From the IMG/VR virus record IMGVR_UViG_3300049740_003016, positions 1 through 64,000 of that record: a stretch of DNA of 64,000 bases; one strand, 5' to 3'. This DNA comes from a virus. The position numbers and the translations under genes are program-made. Shown in pieces: positions 13,946 to 57,715 of this stretch (the stretch's first letter is position 1; the number at the start of each line of letters is the position of its first letter). The notes beneath the pieces were generated by a model that was not told where the DNA came from, did no database searches, and saw only the letters and a program-made list of their open reading frames with translations.

Positions 13946-13964
13946 ATAGATATATATGTATTTA

Positions 13965-15387
<1,423 letters not shown>

Positions 15388-33210: not shown

Positions 33211-34437
33211 TCAATTCTTTTTCCAAATCCAAATTGGTTCTGCGAATGCAACATCTTTATTTTCTTCGGTAATTTCTTTGAGGTCTTCCGAGAAATATTC
33301 ACTCTTGGCATTACCTGCTCCACCTGAATTAAATCGTTTCGTCATTTCCATTCCAACGCAACCAAGATATTCAAGACCTTGTGATTTAATAAAGTCATTC
33401 ATTGGATTTGTGATTTCAACATAGTCGTTGATAGGAGCATTGAATACATCTGCAATGTTGATGGCAAGAATACCATTCTTCTTTATTGCCGGAATTATCT
33501 TACCGAGGGTGGTGTGAAGAAACTTCTCGTTCCAATCATCTATCTTTTTATATCGTACCCAAGATTGCGTATCATCTTCTGAATACTTTTCTGTATTAAA
33601 ATAAGGTGGACTTGTAAACACCGTATCAAAGTAATTTTCATATTGGGAGTAATCTACGTCTTCGGCAGGACTTTCTATTAAGTCTGCTTTTCTATTCTGT
33701 TCAAAAAAGGTAGAATACTTTTCATAGAACTGAATTTGCTTTTGGTAATTAGGATGGTTAAGTGTATTGGGATCAATTCCAACATAATGCTCTGTGGTTT
33801 CACCTGTATAAAATCCCGCTAATCTATCTCCCCAACCTGCACTAAAGTCTAATACGTTCTTGCTTTGAAAGTGATCATAAAATGCTTTTGCTACTGCTGG
33901 TTTGAATTGTGATGCGACATACTTACGAAGGGTCGTAGCAACACGAAGAGTATTAACATCAACACGATTAAGAACTTTATCCAATGTCCAATAAGCACGA
34001 ACAATTGTTTTGATTCCTTTCACCGTCTGCCAAGTTTTCCAACCACTTGGTGTTCTTGTCCAGTCTACTTTCCAACGAGTTTCTACATGAAATGGATTAG
34101 AAGCATTGTTACCCGAGTTGTTTCTTTTCAATAGAAACTGAGAATCTTTGTAGTTAAGGTGGTAGTTGCTTTTTCTTTCATTGCGAGGAAACCACTTTTT
34201 TTCTACAAGCACATCATTGTGCTTTATTCCTTTTAACTTGTTCAAACTATCAAGAGTTTGCTTATCCGTAATCTCGGGTAAAGGAGCAGGATATGTGTGT
34301 AATACTTTAGCAAGTTCTTCTACAACATCTTCTTTATCATACTTTTGCATGATATCTTTCCATTCATCTTCTTCAATTAGAAGGTATGGTTTCATGTTGT
34401 AGAACTTTTTAAAATGTTCTTTTAAGTCAACACACAT
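33211..34437 (-). CDS. DNA methyltransferase-like protein, SAGWG type 1
   Basis: The 408-aa protein has a SAM-binding motif VLDFSAGWGDRLAGF (195-209), a following GIDPNT, and the catalytic TSPPYFN (275-281). A N-terminal region of about 190 residues precedes the catalytic core and may recognise DNA. The gene at 42593 encodes a relative with the same SAGWG, DPNT and SPPYFN motifs. The ATG comes directly after the stop of the upstream gene. It is probably an amino-methyltransferase acting on DNA; another nucleic acid target cannot be excluded. Confidence 0.8.
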   Translation of the reverse strand: MCVDLKEHFKKFYNMKPYLLIEEDEWKDIMQKYDKEDVVEELAKVLHTYPAPLPEITDKQTLDSLNKLKGIKHNDVLVEKKWFPRNERKSNYHLNYKDSQFLLKRNNSGNNASNPFHVETRWKVDWTRTPSGWKTWQTVKGIKTIVRAYWTLDKVLNRVDVNTLRVATTLRKYVASQFKPAVAKAFYDHFQSKNVLDFSAGWGDRLAGFYTGETTEHYVGIDPNTLNHPNYQKQIQFYEKYSTFFEQNRKADLIESPAEDVDYSQYENYFDTVFTSPPYFNTEKYSEDDTQSWVRYKKIDDWNEKFLHTTLGKIIPAIKKNGILAINIADVFNAPINDYVEITNPMNDFIKSQGLEYLGCVGMEMTKRFNSGGAGNAKSEYFSEDLKEITEENKDVAFAEPIWIWKKN

Positions 34438-42592: not shown

Positions 42593-44182
42593 TTACTTCT
42601 TGTAAAACACAAAGATAGGTTCGTATTTTTGCAACTCTCCGTTTATCTTGCAACAATTCTTAACCGTTTCTGCTTTAACACCACGCATTGTTGTCATAAG
42701 CATTTTAAGAGTTTCAACATACTCAAGTCCGTATTCCGCAAGAATATCACGACTATCTTTTTCTAATGGCATAAATCCATCTCCGTCTGCGATGTCTGCG
42801 ATATTCCAAAGCAAGTATCTATCGTTCTTTAAATACTCGGCAGCCGTCTTTAAAGTAGGACGAAGAAAGTTGTCTCTCCAATCTTCATACTCTGGAAACT
42901 TTTTGAAACTCTGAGATTCATCTGCTGAATATTGTTCACGATTAAAATATGGTGGACTCGTAAAAACTAAATCAAGTTTGCCTTTGTATTTTTGGAAACT
43001 TGGATTGTTGGAAATTTCTTCACTTCCGTTTTGATAAACATCATACGTGTTACGGTGACCAAAGAACGGATTGCCTCCGTTTGTTTTGTCATTAAAGAAG
43101 TCGGCAAGATATTCGTAACGACTTTGATTTAGTTCGTCTATATAATTATCTGTGTTTGGATCAGTTCCTATATAATGAATTTGACGGTCGTGTACTGACA
43201 TAGCACCAAGAATACGTCCACCCCAACCTGCACTTGGATCATATATATGAAGATTGCTTTTATCTTGAATGTGATCTGTGTACGTCTGATAAATATACTT
43301 TGCAGTCAACGGAGGAAAGTTTACTGCTGGTTGACTAAGACCAAGTTTAAATGCTTCCATTGCTGACGGAAAGATTCTTGAGTTCTTGTTGTAGTAACGA
43401 ATACTGAATTTGAATTGTACTTCTTTTTCGTCTTCGATAATTACATCATTTATATTTTCTATATCGTCACCGAAGTTTGCAGTTCTTTCTAAATTTCTAA
43501 TGTTGTTTAATTTAAGCAAACCTTCTTTGTATAATTTCTTGATTTGCTTTGCCGTTAACATTAAACTGCTTGCTTCATATGAATCAAACTTTTTTTCTGT
43601 AAATAATTCTATTATCCAAAAATCATTGTCTGGGTGAAGGTGTTTTTCTTTTACAAAGTTACGAATCCATTGCTCTCCGTTTTCCGTTGGACACGGAACA
43701 TCAAAATCATTTTTCTTTATTGTTTTTCCGTGGGCATAAAAAGAATCTCTACGAACTGTTCTTCTCATACAAGTATGAAAACTTTCACGTTTAGCAGGAT
43801 TGGCAAAGCAATCATAAACACTCCAAGATGTATGCTTACTTGAACCTATTTTAGTTTTAAGCATCGTTGGAAAGAACTGATCAACCACAGTTGCAAACTT
43901 ATTAAAGTTTTTGATGATAGTTTTTGTTCCATCCATTTCATCTGTATGTTGAAATTTGTAAACATCATAACCAGGCAACTTGTTAAAGTTTGCTATAATG
44001 TCTTTTTCGTTTTTACCTGTTCTTGGCGGAAGACCTTCATTGTCCCATGTTTCTACTATATAATTTCTAAGTTCATCAATCCACATTTCCAACTCTGCAC
44101 CATTCTTTTGTAGCAGTTCGTGGAATGTTATATTTACTTTACATTCTGCTAAATTGTTTTTTTCGTAGAAATATTTTTTCAT
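42593..44182 (-). CDS. DNA methyltransferase-like protein, SAGWG type 2
   Basis: The ~529-aa product has an N-terminal region of roughly 300 residues without known motifs, then YDPSAGWGGRILGA, GTDPNTDN and TSPPYFNREQ, matching the order and wording of the methyltransferase at 33211. The ATG at 44182 lies just behind the upstream stop (TAATATG); a GTG at 44191 is an alternative. It closes a four-gene unit with a PLP-enzyme-like protein, a C/H/D protein and a beta-hydroxylase-like protein, so methylation may be one step of a larger modification. Confidence 0.8.
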   Translation of the reverse strand: MKKYFYEKNNLAECKVNITFHELLQKNGAELEMWIDELRNYIVETWDNEGLPPRTGKNEKDIIANFNKLPGYDVYKFQHTDEMDGTKTIIKNFNKFATVVDQFFPTMLKTKIGSSKHTSWSVYDCFANPAKRESFHTCMRRTVRRDSFYAHGKTIKKNDFDVPCPTENGEQWIRNFVKEKHLHPDNDFWIIELFTEKKFDSYEASSLMLTAKQIKKLYKEGLLKLNNIRNLERTANFGDDIENINDVIIEDEKEVQFKFSIRYYNKNSRIFPSAMEAFKLGLSQPAVNFPPLTAKYIYQTYTDHIQDKSNLHIYDPSAGWGGRILGAMSVHDRQIHYIGTDPNTDNYIDELNQSRYEYLADFFNDKTNGGNPFFGHRNTYDVYQNGSEEISNNPSFQKYKGKLDLVFTSPPYFNREQYSADESQSFKKFPEYEDWRDNFLRPTLKTAAEYLKNDRYLLWNIADIADGDGFMPLEKDSRDILAEYGLEYVETLKMLMTTMRGVKAETVKNCCKINGELQKYEPIFVFYKK

Positions 44183-44183
44183 A

Positions 44184-45011
44184 TTATGCACCTACATTCC
44201 AAAATAAAGCACCTTCTTTTGCATATTCTTTTACAAACTTCCATGCTTTAGCATCATATGTTGGAGCAGATGGAAATGGTGGCATTTCATTTTCTTTTAT
44301 TGCTTTATCAAACTGATATTCTGATCTGTAATATTTTGCTCGTCCTATTTCTCTTTCATTCATTTTATGTCCAACAGATACTACATTAACAGGTATCTCA
44401 GGAAAAGCAAGTTGTAAACCACGACTAATCGTTCCACTTGACCCAACACTCCAAATTTCACTTGGTGGATTTTCGGATAAAGCATTTCTTGCAACTTTAA
44501 TAATACTTGCTACAACCGTTGGGTGTTCTAATCCGATTGGAAATTCCATTCTATTTTCTGGATCGTCTGCTACATATTTTTTTGCTCTTGATTTAGTAAC
44601 TGATAACATTCCCATATTTACCCACTCGTATATAGCACCCAAGTCCATTCCTCTTTTTTGATATTCATGATAGTTTTCTGGATTGCGTTTTGCCATAAAC
44701 AATACAACTTTTTTGTTGTATTTCTGTGCAACTGCCGGTAAAGATATTTGTGCGTAACCCGTTGCAGGACAACATCCAAATACAATTTCTTTTGCGGAAG
44801 TTTCACGAATGAGTTTATCTACGAAACGAATTTTACTTCCGTGGTTTAGTAGATCATCTCTAACCACATCAATTCCTTCGTAGTTCATAATAATCGGTTT
44901 TGGATTTGGGTCTTCCCAATCTTTAACCAAATCTAACAATTGATCTTCACTCCACATATTACCTGTGTTGTCTTCGTATACTGATTCTATAAATTTTGAT
45001 AACATTACCAT
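44184..45011 (-). CDS. Fold-type II PLP enzyme-like protein (275 aa)
   Basis: The layout resembles the small-molecule PLP enzymes of the tryptophan-synthase-beta/ACC-deaminase fold. A GSKIRFVDKLI helix holds the candidate PLP Lys, then GCCPATGYAQISLPAVAQKY, KKVVLFMAKRN, and a glycine/serine loop VGSSGTISRGLQLAFP that could bind phosphate. It is shorter than ACC deaminase (~330-340 aa). The reaction would be an elimination, deamination or replacement on an amino-acid-like substrate. Two starts (45011 or 45005) overlap the previous stop. Confidence 0.55.
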   Translation of the reverse strand: MVMLSKFIESVYEDNTGNMWSEDQLLDLVKDWEDPNPKPIIMNYEGIDVVRDDLLNHGSKIRFVDKLIRETSAKEIVFGCCPATGYAQISLPAVAQKYNKKVVLFMAKRNPENYHEYQKRGMDLGAIYEWVNMGMLSVTKSRAKKYVADDPENRMEFPIGLEHPTVVASIIKVARNALSENPPSEIWSVGSSGTISRGLQLAFPEIPVNVVSVGHKMNEREIGRAKYYRSEYQFDKAIKENEMPPFPSAPTYDAKAWKFVKEYAKEGALFWNVGA

Positions 45012-45475
45012 GATTTTGTATTTACTTTAATTGCTCGTTCTTCTGATAACTCATATCCCATGAGTTCTGCTAAAATTCTTGTTCGTTTTGATGGTCCGGG
45101 TACTCCGAATGTATTCACCATGAAATAGCATTTTTTTGCTTTTGTATAATCCACATCTTCAAAGTTGGGAAATTGATCAACTGCCAAATCAACAACAGAA
45201 TAATCTGGCCACATAATAAACCTATGCAATCCATCGTCTCCAGGTATGCCAGGTAACTTATATGGTTTAGAACCACGTGGTGATAAATAATAATAAACAA
45301 ATTCTGCAATTACATAACAATAGTTTTTAGTTGGATTGTCGTGTGTCCACCCTTCTTTCATTAACTTTGTTTTTAGATGCTTTTTTCCCATAACACGAAG
45401 TGCATCATGTAAAGTTTGTTTATTGACACCTGCTAACTCATACATAGCTTGCAGTCGTTCTTCTGAGATTTTCAT
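45005..45475 (-). CDS. Unknown protein with possible Cys-His-Asp triad (156 aa)
   Basis: The protein contains NYCYVIAEF, GLHRFIMWPD and VVDLAVDQFP in order, so Cys53, a His near 84 and an Asp near 95-99 could form a papain- or transglutaminase-like triad. Similar short proteins occur in phages without a settled role. It overlaps the upstream hydroxylase-like gene by four bases (ATGA) and the downstream PLP-like gene, so all are co-translated. Confidence 0.5.
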   Translation of the reverse strand: MKISEERLQAMYELAGVNKQTLHDALRVMGKKHLKTKLMKEGWTHDNPTKNYCYVIAEFVYYYLSPRGSKPYKLPGIPGDDGLHRFIMWPDYSVVDLAVDQFPNFEDVDYTKAKKCYFMVNTFGVPGPSKRTRILAELMGYELSEERAIKVNTKSW

Positions 45476-46758
45476 TCAATATAATCGTCGGCATCTTTGG
45501 TGGGTGGATACAATGTACTACTTTCAACCAACCAGTCTCTAAAGTTTTGATTTGCTTTTAAATCAACAACCAGATGATAACGATCCTGTGATCCACCGTT
45601 AAATGCAGTATGTGGTTTCCTCATATCAAGATACCACAATTCTCCTTCTTTCATTTTATCAACCGTTTTTGTTCCGTCTGTGTTCCAAAGTGTGAATTGT
45701 ACTTTTGGATTTGTTTGAATTGGGAAGTGAACTCTTGCCCATTGATTATCTGAAATACCTGCTTCTTTGTCTTGACGGTCTGTGTGACGTTGTAACTCTC
45801 CTTCGCCACCCGCAAGTTTAAGAATTCTGATTCTTTCAAATTCATAAGGAAGAAGTTTTAAATATTCTTCTACTGCTGGTAGTTTTGCACGAAGTGGAGT
45901 ATCTTCTACTTTCCATTTTAATTTTTCTGGATTATTCTTTTTCCACTTGTTGTTCATTTCACTTGGTTTGATAATGAAATCCCACTCACCTCCATAACCA
46001 GATACTGTTACTCCTGACCATGAATCACTTTTATTGTAATTTGAATAATGATTAGAAAACTCGGAACTTACTTTATTTAATTGTTCCATGATTTTTTTAG
46101 GATTAGGAACACCTGGCATTGCTAATCTTTGTAAGGCAATTTCTTGTGCAGGGTCTATTTGTGAGTGTTCACCACCTTTAAACCAAAATCCATACATATC
46201 TGCGAAACTGCTTATAAGATTATCTTTTCTTGTATAACCAATAGATGCAAGAAGTTCACGAATTCTTTTGAGTTGCATATCACATTCAATGACTGTAACT
46301 CCTTCTTCAAAGAAGTTTCCTTTTGCTTCGTGCTTTTCAATTAGTTTACCTAACCATTCTTCGTAACCAGGATAACAAGCAACTTCTTGAATATAAGCAT
46401 CATTTGAACTTAAAGTAATTTCACGACCTGTAAAACTTACTATCTTCTTTTTCTTGGAGTGCATTTTTGGAATATCAAAATATAAAATACACGCACGAAT
46501 AATTCCATTTTCATCTTCCACCCAATCAACTTTTTCATATGTATCTTCTTTATGACCAAGAAGTTTCTGATTCGTCATATTGTTTATTTTTCTAAACGGA
46601 TCACGTAATCTAGGTGAATCTTTATACGAGTCTTCTGGATGTTGTGTTTCCCAAAAGCAATTTAATAAGTTGTCGTAAATTGGACTATCCTCATAGACCC
46701 ACTTCTTTCCGTTGTGAAACGGCTTAGGATATTCAAGTTCAACATTTCTAAAATTCAT
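45472..46758 (-). CDS. Aspartyl/asparaginyl beta-hydroxylase-like 2OG-Fe(II) protein (428 aa)
   Basis: The C-terminal ~120 residues have the beta-hydroxylase pattern: ELQRHTDRQD with His325 and Asp327 as iron ligands, VHFPIQTNP, GELWYLDMRKPH with His383 as the third ligand, and DRYHLVVDL with Arg393 to hold 2-oxoglutarate. The first ~300 residues are unlike known hydroxylases and may bind the substrate. It leads a four-gene unit from a strong promoter six bases before its ATG. Hydroxylation of a protein, a peptide or a modified base is possible. Confidence 0.75.
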   Translation of the reverse strand: MNFRNVELEYPKPFHNGKKWVYEDSPIYDNLLNCFWETQHPEDSYKDSPRLRDPFRKINNMTNQKLLGHKEDTYEKVDWVEDENGIIRACILYFDIPKMHSKKKKIVSFTGREITLSSNDAYIQEVACYPGYEEWLGKLIEKHEAKGNFFEEGVTVIECDMQLKRIRELLASIGYTRKDNLISSFADMYGFWFKGGEHSQIDPAQEIALQRLAMPGVPNPKKIMEQLNKVSSEFSNHYSNYNKSDSWSGVTVSGYGGEWDFIIKPSEMNNKWKKNNPEKLKWKVEDTPLRAKLPAVEEYLKLLPYEFERIRILKLAGGEGELQRHTDRQDKEAGISDNQWARVHFPIQTNPKVQFTLWNTDGTKTVDKMKEGELWYLDMRKPHTAFNGGSQDRYHLVVDLKANQNFRDWLVESSTLYPPTKDADDYIE

Positions 46759-46764
46759 CTATAT

Positions 46765-46793
46765 ATTATATAAACAAATTTATTTGGCGTCAA
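46765..46793 (-). promoter_or_regulatory. Sigma-70-like promoter of the four-gene cassette
   Basis: On the minus strand: TTGACG (46793-46788), 17-base spacer, TATAAT (46770-46765), six bases before the ATG at 46758. Confidence 0.8.
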
Positions 46794-47685
46794 CTATTTT
46801 TTTGATATAATCTTCTAGTTTAATTTTTGCGTTCCAACCAAGATGTTGGTAGGTTAGAGATGGAATTGCTTTTCCGTAGAATCTTTCACCACGTCTTTCT
46901 GGAATCATAATATGTTTATGATTAAACATTTTTGCTACATCAATTATTTTATGTGGAATTCCTGTGCCAAGTGGGTATTCTCCTTGTTGTCCTTTTGTGG
47001 CTGCCAATACAACCCCATTTACAATATCGTCTATATGTGTAAAATCTCTTGACTGATTACCCGGTTCTACGACAGTGAGTGGTTCTCCTTTGGAATATTG
47101 TTCTTCAAATATACCAATAACGGTTGCGTAATCACCCGTTCTTACTTGTCCTGGACCATAAGCATTATAGAAATAAGTGATTTCAAATTTAAGATTAAAC
47201 CATTCTGCATAATTGTTGATTAGTTCAACCATTTTTGCTTTCATCCACGCATACGGAGAAAGATTTTCGTCTTTACCATCATTACCAAATTTACTTGAAC
47301 TTGCTGAATAAACTAACTTTGCTTTTTTTGCGACACAATAATCAAGAACCATTTTAGTTCCTTGCATATTATAGTCCCAACAATTATCAAACGAATCAAA
47401 ACTTGTTACGATTCTTGAAAACTCACCAAAGTGGAAAACAACATCTGGTTCGAAGGCATCTGCAATATCCATCTTGGTATTGGTTACGTCAAATTTTTTC
47501 GGAATTAAAGTTTGAGTATCTTTATTAAGATAAGTTACTTTTTTACTTTTAATATGATTGCTTTCAAATCCACTACTATAATTGTCAATGCTTATAATCT
47601 GAATGTTCTTATATTTTCGTATAAGTTTGCGTATAAGTGCAGTACCAACAAAACCTGCACCACCTGTTATCAAGACTTTATTCAT
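46780..47685 (-). CDS. NAD-dependent sugar epimerase/dehydratase
   Basis: The 301-aa extended SDR protein has the nucleotide motif GGAGFVG at residues 8-14, the catalytic Tyr-x-x-x-Lys in YAWMKAK, a preceding Ser in SASSS, and FYNAYGPGQ and SRDFTHIDDI as in GalE/RmlB-type enzymes. It would epimerise or dehydrate a nucleotide sugar. It is the last gene of the sugar-nucleotide group, and its 3' end overlaps the promoter of the next cassette. Confidence 0.9.
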   Translation of the reverse strand: MNKVLITGGAGFVGTALIRKLIRKYKNIQIISIDNYSSGFESNHIKSKKVTYLNKDTQTLIPKKFDVTNTKMDIADAFEPDVVFHFGEFSRIVTSFDSFDNCWDYNMQGTKMVLDYCVAKKAKLVYSASSSKFGNDGKDENLSPYAWMKAKMVELINNYAEWFNLKFEITYFYNAYGPGQVRTGDYATVIGIFEEQYSKGEPLTVVEPGNQSRDFTHIDDIVNGVVLAATKGQQGEYPLGTGIPHKIIDVAKMFNHKHIMIPERRGERFYGKAIPSLTYQHLGWNAKIKLEDYIKKIVDAK

Positions 47686-47708
47686 ATAAATAAATAAATA
47701 GATTGAAA

Positions 47709-48116
47709 CTACTTCTTTTCTTTTAATCCAGTTAAATCACTTGAACTGCGTATTTTGTCACCGAGACCATCAACCATTTCAATGTTATGTTTTTTACAAA
47801 CAACACTTTCAGGGACTTCTCCGGTGCTTCTGTCTCCACCATTTGCAAAAATGTCTGGTTTGATTGCATCGAGAGAAGCACACACACTTTTGTCTTCATC
47901 AATGCTGAGAAATGCTTCATCAACAATTCCAAGTGCTTCTACGATTTTTACTCGGTCTACTTCGTCCATAAATGGTTTGCCCTTTTTAAGAACACATTGA
48001 TGATTGTTGTTTACGATAACAACAAGACGATCACCAAGTTTCTTTGCTAATTCAAGATATTCCAAATGCCCCACGTGAATTGGGTCAAAGTATCCACTAA
48101 CTGCTACTGTTTTCAT
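47709..48116 (-). CDS. RfaE/TagD-type sugar-phosphate nucleotidyltransferase
   Basis: The 135-aa protein (start at the ATG giving MKTVAVSGYF) has GYFDPIHVGHLEYL with the H-x-G-H active site, NNHQCVLKKGKPFM, NGGDR and a C-terminal KIRSSSDL. It fits the ADP-heptose synthase C-terminal domain or a related cytidylyltransferase. It would activate a sugar phosphate with ATP or CTP for the glycosyltransferases encoded upstream. It differs from the TagD-like enzyme at 18960. Confidence 0.85.
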   Translation of the reverse strand: MKTVAVSGYFDPIHVGHLEYLELAKKLGDRLVVIVNNNHQCVLKKGKPFMDEVDRVKIVEALGIVDEAFLSIDEDKSVCASLDAIKPDIFANGGDRSTGEVPESVVCKKHNIEMVDGLGDKIRSSSDLTGLKEKK

Positions 48117-48120
48117 TATG

Positions 48121-48492
48121 TTACTCCGATTCGTGTTTTTCTGGACGATCATAATCGTCTTGGACTCTTACAATGTCATCTTCACCAAAATAAGTTCCTG
48201 TTTGAACCTCCACCAAAATCATATCTTCTGAATCACTTGGGTTTGCCATACGATGTTTTGCTCCGAGTGGAATCAATACGGTTTCACCTGGTTTGTAATC
48301 TTCCGTGACATCATCTAAGGTTATTCTTGCCACACCACTAACAATTGTCCATGCTTCTTGTCGTTTGTGATGATACTGATAACTTAGTCTTTGTCCTGGT
48401 TTTACAAAGATGCGTTTAACTTTGCAATATTCTGCGTCTAAAAGGATTTCGTAATTTCCCCACGGTCTTATACTTTCGTCTTGTTTGCTCAT
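48121..48492 (-). CDS. Mannose-6-phosphate isomerase-type cupin
   Basis: The 123-aa protein is a stand-alone version of the C-terminal cupin of bifunctional ManC/AlgA enzymes: RPWGNYEIL, VKPGQRLSYQYHHKRQEAW with metal-binding His and Glu, and IPLGAKHRMANP. It should convert fructose-6-phosphate and mannose-6-phosphate or a similar sugar phosphate. It lies between the nucleotidyltransferase and a small unknown gene. Confidence 0.88.
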   Translation of the reverse strand: MSKQDESIRPWGNYEILLDAEYCKVKRIFVKPGQRLSYQYHHKRQEAWTIVSGVARITLDDVTEDYKPGETVLIPLGAKHRMANPSDSEDMILVEVQTGTYFGEDDIVRVQDDYDRPEKHESE

Positions 48493-48496
48493 AATT

Positions 48497-48628
48497 TTAT
48501 CCCCATCTGTCTGCTAAATCTTGTTCTGATATTTTATGTTTTTTTGGTTGTATGTATTTTATTGATTTGTTCAATATGATTATACTATGTTTTTTTGTTT
48601 TAATAAATACTTTTTTTAGATTATCCAT
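48497..48628 (-). CDS. Small basic protein (43 aa)
   Basis: The ATG overlaps the DHH gene stop by eight bases and the stop lies four bases before the cupin start, filling the gap exactly. The product is Lys/Ile-rich with a charged C-terminus ending DLADRWG. The close fit between two genes argues that it is real; the function is unknown. Confidence 0.45.
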   Translation of the reverse strand: MDNLKKVFIKTKKHSIIILNKSIKYIQPKKHKISEQDLADRWG

Positions 48629-49577
48629 TTCCATATATATCTTCAAACTTATCAATAAATTTTTTAAGTTCTGTTTTTGGTAATTCATTTATACCGGCTG
48701 CTTTTTCACGACCACCACCTGTTGGGAAACTTAAAGCAAGTTTACTCGCACCTACTGGATTGTCTTTTGGGGAACGAATGCTAATACGATAATCATCTTC
48801 ATTGATATTTGTTAAAATTGCAAATGCTTTGCTTGGATTGTCTGTGGTCTGCTTGTTACTATATATACCCGAGTATCTGACGGATGCTTTTGTGTCTGGG
48901 AGTAAAATTATGCTTCCGGTGTCCGATGAGTATAATACTTCTGAGGAATTTAGTTCCTGCTCATCCAACTTCATCTGTGAGTTTATTTTGTTATATAGTT
49001 CAGATTTTTTTCTATATTCAAACGGAGATTCATAATCCTTTATGTCAAGATATACATCTTTAGGGTGAGCAGTTAAGTCTGACTCTTGATTTCCATACCC
49101 ATTGTAATTCAATGTTTCTCCAATTTCTTTTAAATAACTCATGTATACTTCATTAAAACATGGATTTAGTTTTTCTGCTTGTTCGTGTAAGTTATCTCCG
49201 TATGCTCCACATATTGTCCAAGGACGATGTAACCCATCAATATATTTGTCCACCAAAATGTTGGTACAACAATTTGGGTTTGTATCTACAAATATTTCAA
49301 AGTTGTCTCCGAGTTTAGTTTCACCGGGTTCGTGATGATCAAACCAACGAATTGTATTTCCGTTACTTAAAATTTTATTAACATGATCTTTGTTTGATAA
49401 TAACGATACATCAAATACGGTAAACTTTGATTTTTTTATGTCGGTGCAATGTCTCAGCAACTCAACATCTCGTTTGACTCCGGTAAATACTTCCGAGTTT
49501 TGTGGATAGTGCATTCTATACTGATGTAGACTTATTATTCCGTCTGCATCTCCGTTGAAAAAATCAAAGTATTTCAT
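48621..49577 (-). CDS. DHH-family phosphoesterase-like protein
   Basis: The 318-aa protein begins NGDADGIIS (DHH motif I), has FDVSLL, then WFDHHEPG with the defining Asp-His-His, a GAYGDN motif, and a C-terminal GGGREKAAG that matches the DHHA1 substrate loop. DHH enzymes cut phosphodiester bonds in single-stranded DNA, oligoribonucleotides or cyclic dinucleotides. Size and layout are nearer to NrnA-type nanoRNases than to RecJ. Placement among sugar genes is unexpected. The start overlaps the dehydrogenase stop by four bases. Confidence 0.85.
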   Translation of the reverse strand: MKYFDFFNGDADGIISLHQYRMHYPQNSEVFTGVKRDVELLRHCTDIKKSKFTVFDVSLLSNKDHVNKILSNGNTIRWFDHHEPGETKLGDNFEIFVDTNPNCCTNILVDKYIDGLHRPWTICGAYGDNLHEQAEKLNPCFNEVYMSYLKEIGETLNYNGYGNQESDLTAHPKDVYLDIKDYESPFEYRKKSELYNKINSQMKLDEQELNSSEVLYSSDTGSIILLPDTKASVRYSGIYSNKQTTDNPSKAFAILTNINEDDYRISIRSPKDNPVGASKLALSFPTGGGREKAAGINELPKTELKKFIDKFEDIYGNG

Positions 49578-50452
49578 TTCTTTGTTTTCTTTTCTAACCC
49601 AACATCCGCAGAAACTGCACGTCCTTTATCTGCCATCCAATCTTTTTCTGGACGATCAAGTTCTTCGTTTCTTTTTATTACCGCATCAAGTATAGGAGTT
49701 GGTATTGAATTATCTTCTGCAAATTTTGCCAAAGCATTTGTGTCTTTTGGAAAGCAGGTTCCTCCAAATCCACGATGACCATCGTGACCAGGAACTTTAG
49801 TATGACCAGTTCCGATTCTTTTATCTTGTGTTGCAATGCAACGCACGTTTTCATAATCAATGTCAAGTTCTGAGCATATTGATTCAAGTTCGTTAAAGAA
49901 ACCAACCTTTACACTTAGAAATACATTTTTTAAATACTTTATCATTTCCGCTTCACTCGGTTTGCACTGAATTACATCTTTGTTTACTACCGAACCACTT
50001 CCGTTATTATATGCAAGTTCAAACATACGTTTCATTTTTTCATATAAAAAAACATCCGTTGAACCAAGTATCCATTGGTCGCAATTTTTAAAATCTTCTT
50101 TCCAGTTTTTTTCAGTAAGAAATTCGGGCATAAATGCAACATCAAGTTCCTCACTTGTTCCAGGTGGAATAGTAGAACGAAGTACAATATATTTTGAGTC
50201 ATCAATTTCTTGAATTTCTTCGCAAACAGAACGCACAATGTCAAGATTTGCACTTCCGTCTGAATTCATTGGAGTAGGAACTGCAACGAAAATAATTTCG
50301 GACTCCTCCACAAATGTTTCTATATCCAATGTTTTTGGATCTCTCTTTTCGGGAACCAAATCCCATACTAATACTTCTACGTGTGGTCTAAGCAATGTCA
50401 TCGCATGACCCACGAAACCATTTCCAACAACTCCAATCTTCATATAACGCAT
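49574..50452 (-). CDS. ugd: UDP-glucose/GDP-mannose dehydrogenase, short form
   Basis: The 292-aa protein has the Rossmann motif VVGNGFVG, the VPTPMNSDGSANL loop, STIPPGT, a KNVFLSVKVGFFNEL helix, and the catalytic Cys in GFGGTCFPKDTNAL. Family members are usually 390-450 aa; the C-terminal UDP-binding domain is missing here. It may still oxidise a small nucleotide sugar or act as a dimer of reduced type. A second Met three codons in (50443) is an alternative start. Confidence 0.85.
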   Translation of the reverse strand: MRYMKIGVVGNGFVGHAMTLLRPHVEVLVWDLVPEKRDPKTLDIETFVEESEIIFVAVPTPMNSDGSANLDIVRSVCEEIQEIDDSKYIVLRSTIPPGTSEELDVAFMPEFLTEKNWKEDFKNCDQWILGSTDVFLYEKMKRMFELAYNNGSGSVVNKDVIQCKPSEAEMIKYLKNVFLSVKVGFFNELESICSELDIDYENVRCIATQDKRIGTGHTKVPGHDGHRGFGGTCFPKDTNALAKFAEDNSIPTPILDAVIKRNEELDRPEKDWMADKGRAVSADVGLEKKTKK

Positions 50453-50508
50453 TCTCCGTTTTTTAAGTGCGATATAACCTTTTATTATAAATATAAAAAA
50501 AGATATTA

Positions 50509-51318
50509 TTACTTAAATTTTCTTTTAATTCTATCGATTGCGTTTTTGTCGGAAACATTTGTGGAATTACCTAATGATGAACCAAATATTTTTAAAATTT
50601 CGTTTTTACTAAATTTCTTTTCGTCATCTGCTGAACGGATTTTTTCTTTTGCATCATGAACTCCTTTAATTATATTTGATGTCATTTGACTGCTTGTAAT
50701 TCCTAACCAAGTAATAAGTCCTGGTATTTTACTTACGATCCAACCAATAAGTTGTGTAATTATCGGAAGAAGTGCAGGTCCTGCGATTACTAAAACTGCA
50801 ATTGCACCGACAATTCCAAACGTTGCAGTTAACCATCCCCAGAAAGAATCAAAGAATCCTTCTTTTTGTTCTTTTGCTTTTAATTCTCCTAAACTAATTA
50901 GTTTTTCTTCTGTATCCTTTAGGTCATGACCAAGCATTTGTTTTCTTCGTGCAAGTTTTATTACATCTTCTTCTCGGTCTGTCAAATTTTTTACTGCTAT
51001 TTCGTTTTCATTTACAACATCTTCAATGTGAATTTTATCTCCTGGTTGTGGAAGACCTACAATTTCCTGTGCCTTTCGTGTAAGATTAAGTGCAACTAAG
51101 TCTTCTTTTGATTTGTTTTCTGACAAAGAAAGTGCGTCAACTGCACCTGATATATATGCACTTGTGTGACGATCAAGTTCTGATTCTTTTCTTGATATTT
51201 CCCCTGCAATTTCTTGTCTATCTTGTTTAAGTCCCCAATTTGAAATCGTAAGGCATCCACTTGTAGAAAATGATAATATTAAAACAGAGAATACAACAAC
51301 AATTTTTTTATAATCCAT
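50509..51318 (-). CDS. Lipoprotein with C-terminal membrane segments (spanin-like topology)
   Basis: From ATG 51318 the 269-aa product starts with a signal peptide and a lipobox-like STSGC with Cys22. A long charged, partly coiled-coil region follows, then hydrophobic segments near residues 150-195 and a polar tail of about 70 residues. A lipid anchor at one end and a membrane anchor toward the other is the layout of unimolecular spanins, which bridge outer and inner membranes at lysis. The size is larger than known u-spanins, and two hydrophobic segments rather than one are seen. An ordinary phage lipoprotein is the alternative. Confidence 0.6.
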   Translation of the reverse strand: MDYKKIVVVFSVLILSFSTSGCLTISNWGLKQDRQEIAGEISRKESELDRHTSAYISGAVDALSLSENKSKEDLVALNLTRKAQEIVGLPQPGDKIHIEDVVNENEIAVKNLTDREEDVIKLARRKQMLGHDLKDTEEKLISLGELKAKEQKEGFFDSFWGWLTATFGIVGAIAVLVIAGPALLPIITQLIGWIVSKIPGLITWLGITSSQMTSNIIKGVHDAKEKIRSADDEKKFSKNEILKIFGSSLGNSTNVSDKNAIDRIKRKFK

Positions 51319-52195
51319 GATTATATATAGTGTCGTTAATCTTTTTTTTAAAAAAACCAAGTTCCATATAAAAGTGTTTATTTGCGTTTTCTCTGAAGTT
51401 AATGATATTGTTTTTTAAAGATGAATCTGGTTGTTGGTAAAATCTATCCTCAACAACAACCATGTTTTTTAAAATGTATTGTTGTACATTCATGTTTTTT
51501 GATTTCATATATTTACAACATTCCATCACAAATGTATCATCGGGTCCATACCCTTTAAATGTATTTGGTATTCCAATGAGTTTCAATAAATTTGCGGATA
51601 TAACATTGAACCACCCACCTCCCCATTTGAATGTGTTACAGGATGTAAGTTTTACATCTCCATGATTTTTTTGTATAATCTTATTTGGATTGACTTTCTT
51701 ATAGAAGTTATGAGATTTATTTAAATAAGTTTCATTTACGATACAATCCCATGTTGTGTCCCATAGTTTTACAACCTGTGGTGATATTACAAAAAAATCA
51801 CTATTTTGTCCTACGAGCTCAATAGCATTAATTTGATTTGCTAATATTTTTTTATCAAAATACAAGTCACAGTCTAAAAATAATATATAGTCAGATTGCT
51901 TTGCTGTTGAAATTGTGCTTCTTCTGTGCTCATTGACTCCTAGAAAATTTTTATCACTGATTATTTTAAAATTAGGTTTTATCTTTGAGTTTAATTCACA
52001 CTTAGAAAAAATGCTTATTAGATTTGATATATCAATTGATTTCATATTAACAATCTCTGTATTGATATTCAAGGAAACATCAAGTATTATTTCTTCTAAA
52101 TTTTTAACAAAATATGTGGCATCATTCAAACTCTCTACGATGCGTTGAAAGTTTTTAATTTCATGTGGAAATAAATGAATAGATATAAAAATCAT
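51308..52195 (-). CDS. GT-A glycosyltransferase (295 aa)
   Basis: The start is the ATG in the ATGA overlap with the upstream gene. The protein has a GT-A core with the nucleotide/metal motif FLDCDLYFD, a middle acceptor region with GGGWFNVIS, and GYGPDDTFVM near the C-terminus, as in galactosyltransferase-like families. The sugar donor and acceptor are unknown. It acts in the cytoplasm, probably after the two glycosyltransferases encoded ahead of it in the same unit. Confidence 0.8.
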   Translation of the reverse strand: MIFISIHLFPHEIKNFQRIVESLNDATYFVKNLEEIILDVSLNINTEIVNMKSIDISNLISIFSKCELNSKIKPNFKIISDKNFLGVNEHRRSTISTAKQSDYILFLDCDLYFDKKILANQINAIELVGQNSDFFVISPQVVKLWDTTWDCIVNETYLNKSHNFYKKVNPNKIIQKNHGDVKLTSCNTFKWGGGWFNVISANLLKLIGIPNTFKGYGPDDTFVMECCKYMKSKNMNVQQYILKNMVVVEDRFYQQPDSSLKNNIINFRENANKHFYMELGFFKKKINDTIYNHGL

Positions 52196-53883
52196 GATAA
52201 CAAAAGTTGCCAAGAATATAAAAGATATATTGCTTCCTCACACTTTCCATTATTGTTTGAAACGGATGCAAGGAGAGATTTGTATTTTTTAAGAGGATTT
52301 TTTAATATTACATTTTTACCGACATAAAAGCATTGCTTCGGATCATAGTCAACTGGTTTGGATGAATGATTCCATATATTATATCCATCCGTTGTTTTCT
52401 TATACTCAATTGTATGATTTCCTATATATCGTTTTTGCCATGTGTCAAATGAATAATTTGAAAATTTGATCTCATTTTTTCGTGTGATATGCTTATGTGG
52501 ATTAAGTTTAATTGTGTTTCGTGTTTTTTCAAAAGGTGTATACTTGCATTCATCGTTTAAAGAATTAGTTTCGTTTGTTAGGTAATTGACTTGATCAAAA
52601 TATTTTTTGTATACAAGTTCGTTTACAAAGAAAACTACATCTGGTAAATTTTCGTAATTTTCTATAATATAGTTCAAATAAAACTTTCCGTAATTGTAGT
52701 GTTTTTCTTTTTTTATATTGTCGTATAAGTGTGTTTCACATTTTATCTTTTTTAAATTAAAACTTTTGTTAAAAAATCTAACACCACACACCGAGAATTC
52801 ACCATTTTTTTTAGTCAATTCTTTTTTTGATTTGGGTTTTATGTTTTTTAACTTATTTACAAAATCAAATGAATTGTCATTAATTGAAAACTCACGATAA
52901 TATTTCTTTATGAGCACAAGAATTTTGTTTTTAAAATGATAATTTTCTAAACTATTTTGTAAGTGATCATCTTCTTTCCGTGAATAGAAATAGTTTTTAA
53001 GTAGTTCAAGTAGTTTTTTGTTTTTAATTTTATATAATGTTTTGGTTTCTTCTAAATCACAACTTGGATTATACTTAGATGCCCTCAGTAAATGCTCACG
53101 ACTTGAATACTGACGATTTATAAAATTTCCATGATATCCAATTTCAAACTCAACGCCAAGTGGTTCTATGCTTATTACCTTTTTTGTTGTGTGTCTCCAT
53201 TTAATAAAATCTTTTTTAAATTCGTCCAATTCTTTAAAGAATCTATCATCTGATATAAATTGTGTAAATTCTTTAAATTCCAAATAGCCAATGAAGTTGA
53301 GGAAATCTCCTGAACCAAAGACTGCCTTGTCATATAAAGGTTTGTCTGTATCTTTAAATAGTTTGCTTGGGTATATATAGCCATAACCCGGTTCCCCTTT
53401 TCTGTATAATAATATGTCATATAGCGAATGCTCGTTTCTTGATATAAAATATGACATTGAACAATCAAGAGCATAATCACCAAAGTGATTTTTATGCTTT
53501 CTCATAGTGGAGCAAATTTGTACGATTTTATTTTCATTTAGTGTAGATTTAAGTTTATCAAACCAATTTGGGTTAACCGGAACTATGTCTGCATCTACCC
53601 ACCCCACAAAATCATATTTATTTTTTATTTTATTCAATCCGATGTTAAGTAGTTGTTCCTTTTGCCAAAATATTTGAGTTGATTTTATGCTTGTAATATT
53701 GTGACAATTTTTATTTACTCTGTAAATTGAATTGTCTTGATATGCTTCAATTACATATAAATCATAAAGTTCATCTTTATTCATTTTGTCGTAAAACATC
53801 AAAAAGTTTATATATTTTGATAGATAGTTACACGGGTTGAAATAACAACAAACCAAAGCAATCTTATTTTTTAATACTTCCAT
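52192..53883 (-). CDS. Two-domain glycosyltransferase (563 aa)
   Basis: The N-terminal ~300 residues form a GT-A fold with a WVDADIVPVNP metal-binding motif and a GSGDFLNF segment. The C-terminal ~200 residues contain NYENLPDVVFFVNE, resembling DUF3431-type domains found with glycosyltransferases. The protein therefore may carry two activities or one catalytic and one acceptor-binding domain. Coding is very AT-rich here. It overlaps its neighbours at both ends. Confidence 0.75.
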   Translation of the reverse strand: MEVLKNKIALVCCYFNPCNYLSKYINFLMFYDKMNKDELYDLYVIEAYQDNSIYRVNKNCHNITSIKSTQIFWQKEQLLNIGLNKIKNKYDFVGWVDADIVPVNPNWFDKLKSTLNENKIVQICSTMRKHKNHFGDYALDCSMSYFISRNEHSLYDILLYRKGEPGYGYIYPSKLFKDTDKPLYDKAVFGSGDFLNFIGYLEFKEFTQFISDDRFFKELDEFKKDFIKWRHTTKKVISIEPLGVEFEIGYHGNFINRQYSSREHLLRASKYNPSCDLEETKTLYKIKNKKLLELLKNYFYSRKEDDHLQNSLENYHFKNKILVLIKKYYREFSINDNSFDFVNKLKNIKPKSKKELTKKNGEFSVCGVRFFNKSFNLKKIKCETHLYDNIKKEKHYNYGKFYLNYIIENYENLPDVVFFVNELVYKKYFDQVNYLTNETNSLNDECKYTPFEKTRNTIKLNPHKHITRKNEIKFSNYSFDTWQKRYIGNHTIEYKKTTDGYNIWNHSSKPVDYDPKQCFYVGKNVILKNPLKKYKSLLASVSNNNGKCEEAIYLLYSWQLLLS

Positions 53884-54496
53884 CTGAATTGTAATTGCTT
53901 GAATATAAACTATTATTATACTCTTGTTTTTGTATACCCTTAATATGCATTAGATCAAGGCCAACATCTTTTGGCAAATTTGTTGAGGATGTGTGTCCGG
54001 AGATATATTCATGAACTGGACGAGTCCATCTTATAGACTTTTTGTTTTTAAAAATTCTTGTTTGATAATCTGGATAATTAATTCTACTCTGTGTGTCAAT
54101 TTTCCAATTCCACTTTTTAATATGATGTGTTTGAATTCCTTTTACGAAGTTAATTCGTGGAACTCTAAATAATTCTATTTCGTTATTTGCTATCAATATT
54201 TTTTTAATGTTCAATAGAAGTAGTTCACTTGGATATTCATCTGCATCAATTTGAAATATATATTCACCGTTACACCTCTCTATTAAATAATTTTTATGCT
54301 TTGCATAGTCTTTGTTTAATTTATGATAATATACATTTTCATGCTTTTCTAAAATATTTTTCGTTTCATCGTTAGTTGAATAATCGTCTAAAATTACTAC
54401 TTCATCATTTAAATCTTTTTTTGAATTTAGTAGTTTTAAAAGTTGATCTAAGCACTCAACCTCGTTATGTGTGCAGATTGCGTATGATATATTCAT
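53864..54496 (-). CDS. Family 2 glycosyltransferase
   Basis: The 210-aa protein is a short GT2: an N-terminal YAICTHNE, VVILDDYSTNDET, KHKNYLIERCNGEYIFQIDADE with the D-x-D metal motif, and a C-terminal RIFKNKKSIRWTRPVHE. It would transfer a sugar from a nucleotide donor. It overlaps the upstream gene by four bases (ATGA) and the downstream transferase by 20, so all are co-translated. Confidence 0.88.
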   Translation of the reverse strand: MNISYAICTHNEVECLDQLLKLLNSKKDLNDEVVILDDYSTNDETKNILEKHENVYYHKLNKDYAKHKNYLIERCNGEYIFQIDADEYPSELLLLNIKKILIANNEIELFRVPRINFVKGIQTHHIKKWNWKIDTQSRINYPDYQTRIFKNKKSIRWTRPVHEYISGHTSSTNLPKDVGLDLMHIKGIQKQEYNNSLYSSNYNSDGSIKK

Positions 54497-55197
54497 TTTT
54501 CTTCTATGGGTGGTATTTCCGAAGAAGTTGCTTCTGCGTCTTTTACGAAATCTTCAACTTCTCTAAATACTTTTACAAAGGTATTCACATCACCAAATCT
54601 TTCTAATACAACACTTTTAAATTTTTTATCGGATATTTTATCTAACTTAAACCCCAAGGCCTCTTCAACTATCTTCTTCTCTCTCTGCAATTCATTGATA
54701 TTATCTTGTCTACTTATTAATGTTTGTTGCATATCTTTTTTACCAGAAAACAACTTTGAGAAATCTAGATATCCAAGTTTTATTTGAGTCATGTTTGTTG
54801 TAATATAAGTACGATAACATTCCCTTTTTTGCAGTATCCTTTTTATCGTGGACGAATAAAATGGTTGAGGTCGATTTATTATTTCTTTGACTGGTGATTT
54901 TATTTCATATCTTCTTTTTAGCAAACTGATAGTATCTGTAACCAGTATGTTATTTAAAAAAGTTTTAAATTCTGTCCAAGGTAATATCTCTAAATTTAAT
55001 CCGTGTAATTTAAGTGATTTTTGATCACGATATGTATTCAGTACAAAAACAATCCTAAAAAGTTTTCTTCGTGTCGTTTTATCTTCATCGGATGGGTTGT
55101 ATTTAAATGTAATAACTTGTCCAGGTTTTATTCTGGCTACATTTGTGTTTTTAAAACCACCAACTAATCTTGTTAAATATGCTCTGTAAAAACTCAT
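54493..55197 (-). CDS. Unknown phage protein (234 aa)
   Basis: The N-terminal ~130 residues are beta-rich and basic (KPGQVITFKYNP, HGLNLEILPW), the middle has a YRTYITTNMTQI segment, and the C-terminal part is helical and acidic. I think of phage structural or end-protection proteins, but cannot name one. It starts six bases after an ATATTTATA box and is inserted inside the glycosyltransferase unit, which is odd. Confidence 0.55.
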   Translation of the reverse strand: MSFYRAYLTRLVGGFKNTNVARIKPGQVITFKYNPSDEDKTTRRKLFRIVFVLNTYRDQKSLKLHGLNLEILPWTEFKTFLNNILVTDTISLLKRRYEIKSPVKEIINRPQPFYSSTIKRILQKRECYRTYITTNMTQIKLGYLDFSKLFSGKKDMQQTLISRQDNINELQREKKIVEEALGFKLDKISDKKFKSVVLERFGDVNTFVKVFREVEDFVKDAEATSSEIPPIEEK

Positions 55198-55203
55198 TGC
55201 ATA

Positions 55204-55212
55204 TATAAATAT
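55204..55212 (-). promoter_or_regulatory. ATATTTATA box
   Basis: ATATTTATA on the minus strand, six bases before the ATG of the 234-aa gene. Confidence 0.5.
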
Positions 55213-55218
55213 ATAGAA

Positions 55219-56454
55219 TTAGGATATATCAGGTAAGTCTAATTCAACTTCTACTGGAATATTTTCTATCTCCGGAATTATTAGTTCTTCATATTGCTTG
55301 AACACAGACTCTTTAGAAAACTTCTTTAGATTTGTTTTCTGCAATAGAACTGCCTGTTTTTTATGAGTATCATAATCATCAAATATTTTTTTCATAGAAT
55401 TGGCAGAATCTGTTTCGTTTATATTTGCCCAAGTTGAATCTTCGCAAAATAAGTCGTTGCTTATTCCCACCTTTATTTGAGAGCAGTTTACTAACTCGGA
55501 TTTGTCACTATCAAGAAAGTCTAAATGACCAGACCAGTTTGGTGCTATTACGGGACATCCACACAAAGTTGCTTCTAATATGGGTCTTCCAAATCCCTCA
55601 CCCCGGGTGTGTGTTACGAATGCTTTTATTTTATCATGTGAGTATAAACTCTTTAATTCGGCTGCATTTAATTCACCATGTAAAAGATAAACATTGGGAC
55701 GTGCTTCTGGAGTAAAGTTATCAAGTTGTTCTTTGATTTTATCCTGAATATCATAATAGTCAGATGTACTGAAGTTTGTTCCGTTAGTTTTTAGAACTAG
55801 TGCAGGTCGTTTATCGTATGATGCAAATGCAGTTCCGAATGATTTTATTAAAGATGATATATTCTTTCTACCACCATCGTCTGTTGGTGATGATGTCCAT
55901 TGTCCCACAAATAAAAAACAAAAGTCTTCGTTTATTTCGTCAAGTTCCTTTACGGGTACATCTGTGGTTGTTTCATAAAAAGAACCAACTGCGTATTCAG
56001 GTACTACATCTATGTTGGTTTCTAGCTTTATATTCTCTTTTTCGTATATAGAGTTCTCGAATGACTCTTTTGTAAATGTAGATGGAACTATCACTTTGTC
56101 CATTTGGTTACATCCACGAATGAACGGCAAGTTTACTTTTGATGTTTCAACTCCGGCAGTTATTCCAATGTTATATGTACCCAATCGTTTGAATTCTGGC
56201 GGGAGACCTAATTGAATATATACATCATAAAAGTCATATACATCTTTTGAGTCAACAAACATATTTTTAAGTTTGTCGTTTAATTCTTCGTTTGCTTGTA
56301 AACCAGTCTGTGGATTGTGACCCCACGGAGTTCCAATCATGTGTATTTCGTAATCATCTGCGTAGTTGGTTAAAAACTCGGCAAACTCTCTCGCATGATC
56401 ACCGTACCCACTTCGTGATAAAATTGGAGAGACATATAATAATTTTTTTTTCAT
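55219..56454 (-). CDS. GT-B glycosyltransferase (GT1/GT4 superfamily), 411 aa
   Basis: The C-terminal half has the retaining GT-B donor site: FVTHTRGEGFGRPILEA and CPVIAPNWSGHLDF. The N-terminal half starts LLYVSPILSRSGYGDH, typical of the acceptor-binding domain. It would add a sugar to a glycan, lipid or protein. One base separates its start from the previous glycosyltransferase stop. Confidence 0.88.
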   Translation of the reverse strand: MKKKLLYVSPILSRSGYGDHAREFAEFLTNYADDYEIHMIGTPWGHNPQTGLQANEELNDKLKNMFVDSKDVYDFYDVYIQLGLPPEFKRLGTYNIGITAGVETSKVNLPFIRGCNQMDKVIVPSTFTKESFENSIYEKENIKLETNIDVVPEYAVGSFYETTTDVPVKELDEINEDFCFLFVGQWTSSPTDDGGRKNISSLIKSFGTAFASYDKRPALVLKTNGTNFSTSDYYDIQDKIKEQLDNFTPEARPNVYLLHGELNAAELKSLYSHDKIKAFVTHTRGEGFGRPILEATLCGCPVIAPNWSGHLDFLDSDKSELVNCSQIKVGISNDLFCEDSTWANINETDSANSMKKIFDDYDTHKKQAVLLQKTNLKKFSKESVFKQYEELIIPEIENIPVEVELDLPDIS

Positions 56455-56455
56455 T

Positions 56456-57715
56456 TTATATTTTCTTTAATTTAATTTTATTCACTGGTTTAAATTTTTT
56501 GATTGTAGATTTGAGTATATTTGCAATTCCATTTGTCATTCGTTCCATCGGAAATGTTTTCTCAACAAACTCTCTTCCACGTTTACCCATACCCAAACGA
56601 TCCATTTTATTCAACGAATAAATTGATATAAGTGCTTTAGCAACATCGTCTGATGATATAAAGTCTTCATAAATAAACGGAGTTGATTCGTCACCCGACA
56701 ACTTTCTAACACTTGGTTCAATGTGAATTCCCCAATCATTGTTTTTTACAATTTGTGATGAAAGTCCACCTGTATTTGTACAAATTATTGGTGTTCCGGC
56801 TGCAAGTGACTCAAGTGTCGTTAATCCAAAACCTTCGTTACTGGCCGTATTTACAGTTACATCAAATGTATTGTACATTCTATTTAATATAGTTTCTTCA
56901 ACCTTTGCATTAGAAAACAGTATATTTCTATTGGGGTACAATTGCTCTGAGAGTTTTACTATATCGTGATTTCCTTCACCTACTCTGTTTGTATGAATCA
57001 TTAAAACTGTTTTGTCTGCCTGATTCGGTTTAAGTAGACTGCAAAACTTATCATACGACTCCATCAATAAAGGTAGTTGCTTTCGTCTCATATTTGCGTT
57101 ATTGCAGAATATTGCAAACTCACAACCTTCACTTAATAAATTATATTTACTTTCGGCTATGTGCTTTTCCGAAAGTTTATTAAATACATCAAGGGCAACT
57201 CCATGTGGAACATATTCACATATAATTTTGTTGGTATCAATTAATTCTGATATGAGGTTGTAAGTTAATTCACTTATACAAGCAATTCCATCGCAACTAT
57301 CATAGTATTTTTTATTAAATATTGGTAGTGGATCGTTGTCCCATACATGATAATAAATCATGGGACATATTTGACGAACTTGATTGTCTAACGCAAACAA
57401 CCACTTATAATACCTCGGATCGGTCATAAATAATATTGCATCAGGTTTTTCGTTTTCTAGTATTTTAAATAGCAACTCTTCATTGCCATAACCAGATGTG
57501 CAATATAATCTAACATACACATCGTTAATGTTGCAAAGTTTTTCTATTGACTGCGATACATCAATTATACTTCCCGACTCTGGATGTTTTTTTCTGGCTG
57601 CAATTTGAATCCAATCAAACTCTTCTGCGTTATTTAGTATAATGTTTTTACAAACATTCGCAACACCAGACGGATACCTTATGTCATCCCCTATAAGTAA
57701 TATTTTAGACTTCAC
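56456..57715 (-). CDS. GT-B glycosyltransferase (GT4-type), 419 aa
   Basis: The N-terminus reads LLIGDDIRYPSGVANV and the donor-site motif is NTASNEGFGLTTLESLAAGTP, the E-x7-E arrangement of GT4 enzymes. The start is a GTG at 57715. A TTGACA (minus strand, 57750-57745) lies just upstream, though its -10 partner is weak. It is the first of at least five glycosyltransferases in this island. Confidence 0.88.
   Translation of the reverse strand: MKSKILLIGDDIRYPSGVANVCKNIILNNAEEFDWIQIAARKKHPESGSIIDVSQSIEKLCNINDVYVRLYCTSGYGNEELLFKILENEKPDAILFMTDPRYYKWLFALDNQVRQICPMIYYHVWDNDPLPIFNKKYYDSCDGIACISELTYNLISELIDTNKIICEYVPHGVALDVFNKLSEKHIAESKYNLLSEGCEFAIFCNNANMRRKQLPLLMESYDKFCSLLKPNQADKTVLMIHTNRVGEGNHDIVKLSEQLYPNRNILFSNAKVEETILNRMYNTFDVTVNTASNEGFGLTTLESLAAGTPIICTNTGGLSSQIVKNNDWGIHIEPSVRKLSGDESTPFIYEDFISSDDVAKALISIYSLNKMDRLGMGKRGREFVEKTFPMERMTNGIANILKSTIKKFKPVNKIKLKKI

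Follow-up and report, generated by a model that had tools for sequence, protein, structure and literature searches.

Gene order, promoter and surroundings of the four-gene block

The window, i.e. the whole stretch of 64,000 nucleotides analysed here, comes from a viral record of 161,235 bases that is possibly incomplete or a fragment. The phage is marine and T4-like, the latter affiliation being pointed to by RIIA/RIIB-like genes, a clamp loader and a DNA polymerase predicted in the record. Running from 46758 down to 42593 on the minus strand are four open reading frames, termed A, B, C and D, tightly coupled by stop/start overlaps or near-overlaps. Genes A and B are joined by an ATGA overlap and genes B and C by TAATG, both junctions as described in the original prediction of an overlapping four-gene cassette, and the reading frames lie exactly where that prediction placed them. 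The junction of C and D reads TAA-T-ATG with D starting at the conserved ATG at 44182, which is probably its start, and is an 8-nt overlap with the listed GTG at 44191.

Directly before gene A a scan located the promoter-like sequence TTGACG-N17-TATAAT (46765-46793, minus strand), which matches at 11/12 positions, is the best promoter match of the region and overlaps the last codons of an epimerase gene. Promoter-like matches as a class were not in excess across the region (24 observed versus 25.5 +/- 4.9 by chance). Both hexamers are nevertheless conserved in 5/5 relatives that share the order A-B-C-D (L001-L005), with the spacer altered in L003-L005. Because the promoter abuts the conserved start codon (ATG) of A, a leaderless transcript is to be expected.

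Sugar-nucleotide and glycosyltransferase genes lie directly upstream of the cassette (46780-57715, minus strand), in a run comprising an epimerase, a cytidylyltransferase, a mannose-6-phosphate isomerase-like cupin, a UDP-glucose dehydrogenase and several glycosyltransferases, which could have a role in tail or envelope sugars, or in DNA. Elsewhere on the minus strand a tandem pair of Glu/Leu/Phe/Val dehydrogenase-family genes (12602-15347; both domains, E < 1e-47) was found, two glutamate-dehydrogenase-family genes being unusual auxiliary metabolic genes for a T4-like phage, and an M29-family, aminopeptidase-like metallopeptidase (24948-26066; 1.9e-51) is also encoded within the phage genome.

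Family assignment of the four proteins

Searches with single window proteins against Pfam, PHROGs, NCBIfam and PADLOC gave no curated name for B or C, and the naming of these two proteins rested on family alignments. The PADLOC models, which cover known anti-phage defence, returned weak MTase_II matches to D and nothing else for the cassette proteins.

Gene A (45472-46758, minus strand; 428 aa) encodes an N-terminal domain followed by an AspH-type 2-oxoglutarate/Fe(II) oxygenase, as assigned by PF05118, alignment and AlphaFold/Foldseek. The protein matches Asp_Arg_Hydrox (PF05118) at 1.1e-9, above the cut-off, and carries the HxD...H plus Arg signature of the AspH family, with H325xD327, H383 and the 2-oxoglutarate-binding R393 invariant in the alignment. 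Its AlphaFold model, built on six sequences only and with a mean pLDDT of 75, matched proline cis-4-hydroxylase (4p7w, 2e-9) and also AspH in Foldseek. The best-known substrates of AspH-type enzymes are proteins, free amino acids and lipids. The N-terminal domain is possibly GNAT-like; a GNAT identity, suspected from the order of secondary-structure elements, received no profile support (RimI, E 0.63).

Gene B (45005-45475, minus strand; 156 aa) was placed in the YunG family by profile match and alignment, with C53, H84 and D96 invariant across the aligned proteins. The window protein reaches YunG (PF24585) at E 0.01 and 16.5 bits against a curated cut-off of 27, and its relative in viral locus L059 does so at 6e-7 and 30 bits, above the cut-off. 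An assigned function was looked for in the YunG family and none was found.

Gene C (44184-45011, minus strand; 275 aa), whose conserved start is probably the ATG at 45005, was identified by profiles and alignment as a member of phrog_7093 (9.8e-40) and, at the level of its family, is a predicted fold-type II pyridoxal phosphate (PLP) enzyme of the tryptophan synthase beta/ACC deaminase superfamily (PALP). The PALP profile (PF00291) is matched by 20/41 C-family members, at best with 5.1e-12, and the window protein alone gave no match; a profile of the C family run against the PDB retrieved tryptophan synthase beta (2.7e-4) and also cysteine synthase and ACC deaminase. Across 41 diverse family members K60, R62, S192 and G193 are invariant and, from alignment to ACC-deaminase-type enzymes, K60 would be the Schiff-base lysine and S192/G193 part of the phosphate-binding loop. 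The lysine motif is present in 154/162 distinct C proteins. Cellular genomes almost lack the family (10 loci among 84,980 species), which is all but confined to phages; a scan of viral contigs yielded at least 554 confirmed relatives. An identity as a metabolic dehydratase was rejected, no curated model being reached: the window protein did not match the NCBIfam curated metabolic dehydratase models, and the relative in Erythrobacter phage ZS04 scored 28.7 bits with the NCBIfam serine/threonine dehydratase model against a cut-off of 331.

Gene D (42593-44191, minus strand; 532 aa) encodes a predicted amino-type (N4/N6) DNA methyltransferase with an N-terminal extension of ~260 residues, on the basis of PF01555, alignments, AlphaFold and Foldseek. 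Motif I (DPSAGWGG) and motif IV (TSPPY) are invariant or nearly so, whilst the match to N6_N4_Mtase (PF01555) is weak, falling just below the cut-off in one search and just above it in another. The closest viral structures to the AlphaFold model (pLDDT 86) in Foldseek are N4-cytosine-type methyltransferases of giant viruses (best 1.1e-13), with Bacillus phage G and a mycobacteriophage among the other matches; profile searches of the PDB with D gave nothing useful, and Foldseek against the PDB gave generic SAM methyltransferases. The group that D transfers might be a plain methyl. Taken together, the match of A to PF05118, the C53/H84/D96 set of B, the family-level PALP assignment of C and motifs I and IV of D agree with the gene content originally proposed, namely a hydroxylase-like protein, a possible Cys-His-Asp enzyme, a PLP-like enzyme and a methyltransferase.

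Four more DNA methyltransferases are encoded at 33211-34437, 27515-28411 and 26107-27591 (all minus strand) and at 149207-149872 of the full record. Those at 33211-34437 (SAGWGD/TSPPYF), which has a shorter N-terminus, and 27515-28411 (TCPPY) belong to the broad family of D. In L003-L005 (8821-11990) a tandem second D, 70% identical to window D, directly follows the first. A Satyrvirus protein named glutathione synthase (A0A3G5AD75) shows a match of 581 alignment columns to the D model and may be a D-like methyltransferase fused to an ATP-grasp ligase, an arrangement in keeping with amino-acid loading.

Recurrence of the block and pairing of C with methyltransferases

The original prediction had treated the four genes as one set, and their homologues do occur together in other genomes, in the order A-B-C-D in the uncultured viral contigs L001-L005 (with the second D in L003-L005) and in the order D-A-B-C in L006, L007, L009, L010 and L011; the outcome that the prediction itself had named as refuting it, homologues that are not seen together, thus did not arise. 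Across these relatives identity to the window is 74-99% for C and 45-97% for D, and the block is flanked by sugar-nucleotide genes in the A-B-C-D group and by structural (tail-type) genes in the D-A-B-C group. A search with B recovered 21 viral loci, of which 21/21 contain C and 21/21 a relative of A and/or D nearby; locus L059, recovered by the search with C, has B and C with neither A nor D within the available stretch, and the dependence of B on A/D partners is strong, not absolute. Genes A and D occur without B and C at nine loci. Gene D is often found without C, which lies within 6 kb at 23/80 D loci, flanks often being incomplete, so that D has some role independent of C. Partial nesting of this kind suggests D as the first to act, with the other proteins elaborating its product. 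Co-occurrence of the cassette genes is far beyond chance.

The core of the cassette is C together with D. Contig ends truncated 14 of the 110 non-redundant C loci, which left 96 informative ones. Methyltransferases were called from motifs I and IV or from the D profile, so that the pairing counts are approximate: a methyltransferase lies within 60 nt of C at 57 of the informative loci, within 3 kb at a further 21 and further away at 2, is fused to C at 5 and is missing at 11, all of which have room on both sides. A methyltransferase within 60 nt was found for 50% of C genes versus 9.5% of other genes of 200-450 aa in the same, redundant loci.

A ParB-methyltransferase chain with the PLP domain inserted in it is encoded by Erythrobacter phages ZS04 and R6L and by the uncultured L105-L108, the insertion falling after DPFAGGS...YTGIDLR..Q..ANR and before W..GDS...CPPY. 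The insert lies between motifs II and III and not exactly at the target-recognition position of alpha-class enzymes. Microcystis phage Mae-JY30 has this methyltransferase without the insert, between a ParB gene and a PLP gene. Apparent fusions in L114 and L134/L136 were discarded as probable long GC-rich read-through frames. Delivery of O-phosphoserine to C by a ParB domain, in the manner of SbnI, was discarded for this phage, no ParB domain being detected in it. A PLP domain within, or paired with, phage DNA methyltransferases was not described in the open literature searched.

Relation to known DNA hypermodification and a proposed role

In thymidine hypermodification pathways the substrates of the PLP enzymes are amino acids that are already DNA-bound. 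The PLP enzyme of phages M6, YuA and SN1 is a homologue of C, and the cassettes of M6, YuA and Sphaerotilus phage SN1 (5-NedU) resemble that of the window in having a phrog_7093 PLP enzyme amid base-modifying enzymes; window C is, however, only ~26% identical and is paired with an amino-methyltransferase. More distant C relatives in Pam3 and Bordetella phages adjoin genes annotated as aGPT-Pplase, DNA repair photolyase and thymidylate synthase. To our knowledge, the traceable phage DNA hypermodifications of the amino-acid type all start from 5-hydroxymethyl pyrimidines. In SN1 the PLP gene is listed as part of the cassette for thymidine modification, together with aGPT-Pplases, a nucleotide kinase, a radical SAM protein (rSAM) and Nmad5 (PMC9476957).

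The thymidylate-synthase family that includes dUMP hydroxymethylase (PF00303) was detected in 9 control genomes and not in the 161-kb record, which may be a fragment; Thy1 and ParB were likewise not found in the record. Pam3 aGPT-Pplases 1/2 and radical SAM, used as queries in a search of the possibly incomplete record run without a control, gave no match there, and the same queries do match the CN1 homologues. With its entry-route enzymes not found in this possibly incomplete record, the cassette was not assigned to the M6-type pathway, although C may work like one part of it. Since the M6 entry route was not found in the 161-kb record, the entry step is probably taken by D on an amino group of a cytosine or adenine base. 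The original remark that this gene set matches no described phage system holds within the literature searched, with the qualification that the PLP family itself already belongs to a described phage hypermodification pathway.

A glycosyltransferase-like gene and TAGT come after C in L126-L128, L139 and L164; the TAGT matches reach 4e-14 and pass the curated threshold in L126, L127 and L139. The top PDB match of the glycosyltransferase-like family profile is T4 DNA beta-glucosyltransferase (BGT), at a non-significant E of 0.05. In T6-like phages, the attachment of a second glucose to cytosine that already bears one is attributed to TAGT, a family of DNA-base glycosyltransferases; these sister cassettes share with T4/T6-type glucosylation both TAGT and a BGT-like gene (PMC13390438). 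That system starts at hydroxymethylcytosine, whereas no TAGT and no thymidylate-synthase-type enzyme was found in the whole record of our phage, and the BGT-like gene is absent from the window cassette. The C relatives in the Erythrobacter phages and Mae-JY30 are of the type described as ParB-CTPase-methyltransferase phage fusions, in which an inserted PLP domain goes unmentioned (PMC12704722); the window phage differs in having no detected ParB domain and a different N-terminus on D. A DNA methyltransferase relative that transfers a handle larger than methyl, as proposed below for D, is found in the CmoX/CmoA carboxymethylcytosine system of Synechococcus phage S-B43, but CmoX is a C5-cytosine enzyme using Cx-SAM with no PLP enzyme reported (PMC12783734), and D is of the amino type (SPPY).

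We propose, with a probability of about 0.68, that the cassette encodes a pathway of post-replicative phage DNA hypermodification, probably of a new variety. DNA as the substrate is strongly suggested by the PLP domain within methyltransferase chains, the homology between C and the PLP enzyme of the M6 type, and the relatives of DNA glycosyltransferases beside C. The same reading is favoured by the recurrence of the block in two permuted orders with differing surroundings, the pairing of C with methyltransferases, the N4-cytosine-type viral structures nearest to D, the near-absence of C from cells and the conserved catalytic residues of A, B and C; it is weakened by the chance that D moves no more than methyl groups, the frequent occurrence of D without C, the usual substrates of AspH-type enzymes, the failure to find an assigned function for the family of B, the lack of TAGT and BGT-like genes in the window cassette and the 11 C loci without a methyltransferase.

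We infer an order of steps, their chemistry, a product and a protective role as follows, the reactions of C, A and B and the group moved by D (methyl or aminocarboxypropyl) being guesses. D would bind phage DNA and alkylate an exocyclic amino group, N4 of cytosine or, less likely, N6 of adenine, with a group probably larger than methyl and bearing an alpha-amino acid, e.g. the 3-amino-3-carboxypropyl arm of SAM. Positioned next to the active site of D, and in some phages part of its chain, C would then perform PLP chemistry on the DNA-bound amino acid, by decarboxylation, elimination or replacement; A would hydroxylate the resulting side chain, B would trim by hydrolysis, or transfer, an amide or acyl group, and in sister phages glycosyltransferases would cap the product. 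DNA modified in this way would resist host nucleases, probably by being hidden from bacterial enzymes. The specific scheme in which D loads an amino acid such as the SAM aminocarboxypropyl arm onto an exocyclic amine, the fold-type II PLP partner or domain acts on the base, and hydroxylation and, in sister phages, glycosylation follow is a tentative one that we consider possible rather than probable.

Peptide modification and chemical attack on a host target had been raised originally on a par with DNA hypermodification, which is now much the best supported of the three, the other two having gained no positive evidence here. A cassette acting on a protein or peptide, whether a host target or a phage protein, would have A hydroxylating Asp, Asn or Pro, B serving as a cysteine protease or transglutaminase-like enzyme, C dehydrating side chains and D methylating. 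AspH-family enzymes do act on peptides, and the Cys-His-Asp set of B is typical of papain or transglutaminase-like enzymes, but the motifs of D are those of a nucleic-acid amino-methyltransferase, the overlapping genes leave no space for a precursor gene and the partners of C are ParB-methyltransferase proteins and relatives of DNA glycosyltransferases, so that we regard this reading as highly improbable. Slightly more remote still is the view of C as a non-enzymatic PALP-fold accessory domain, for target recognition or structure, of a conventional methyltransferase; its insertion beside the catalytic motifs does resemble a target-recognition insert, yet the putative Schiff-base lysine and phosphate-loop residues are retained without exception in the 41 diverse members, and the lysine motif in nearly all distinct C proteins.

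It is also unlikely, if somewhat less so, that D is an orphan DNA methyltransferase accompanied by unrelated auxiliary metabolic genes, C being a serine/threonine dehydratase or D-cysteine desulfhydrase that serves host nitrogen or sulfur metabolism and A a hydroxylase of free amino acids. Several phages have C annotated as threonine dehydratase, among solved structures the nearest relative of A hydroxylates free proline, and the phage has other metabolic genes, e.g. the glutamate-dehydrogenase-family pair. Against this, C occurs inside methyltransferase chains, accompanies methyltransferases in varied arrangements and adjoins relatives of DNA glycosyltransferases, is almost confined to phages and falls below every curated metabolic-enzyme cut-off.

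The fused form is present in isolated phages, which makes DNA hypermodification open to direct testing. If the proposal is true, a widespread marine module in which a PLP enzyme is paired with an amino-methyltransferase would give DNA hypermodification a chemically different point of entry; with it would come nucleosides not yet known, new ways for abundant ocean phages to evade restriction and new enzymes acting on DNA.
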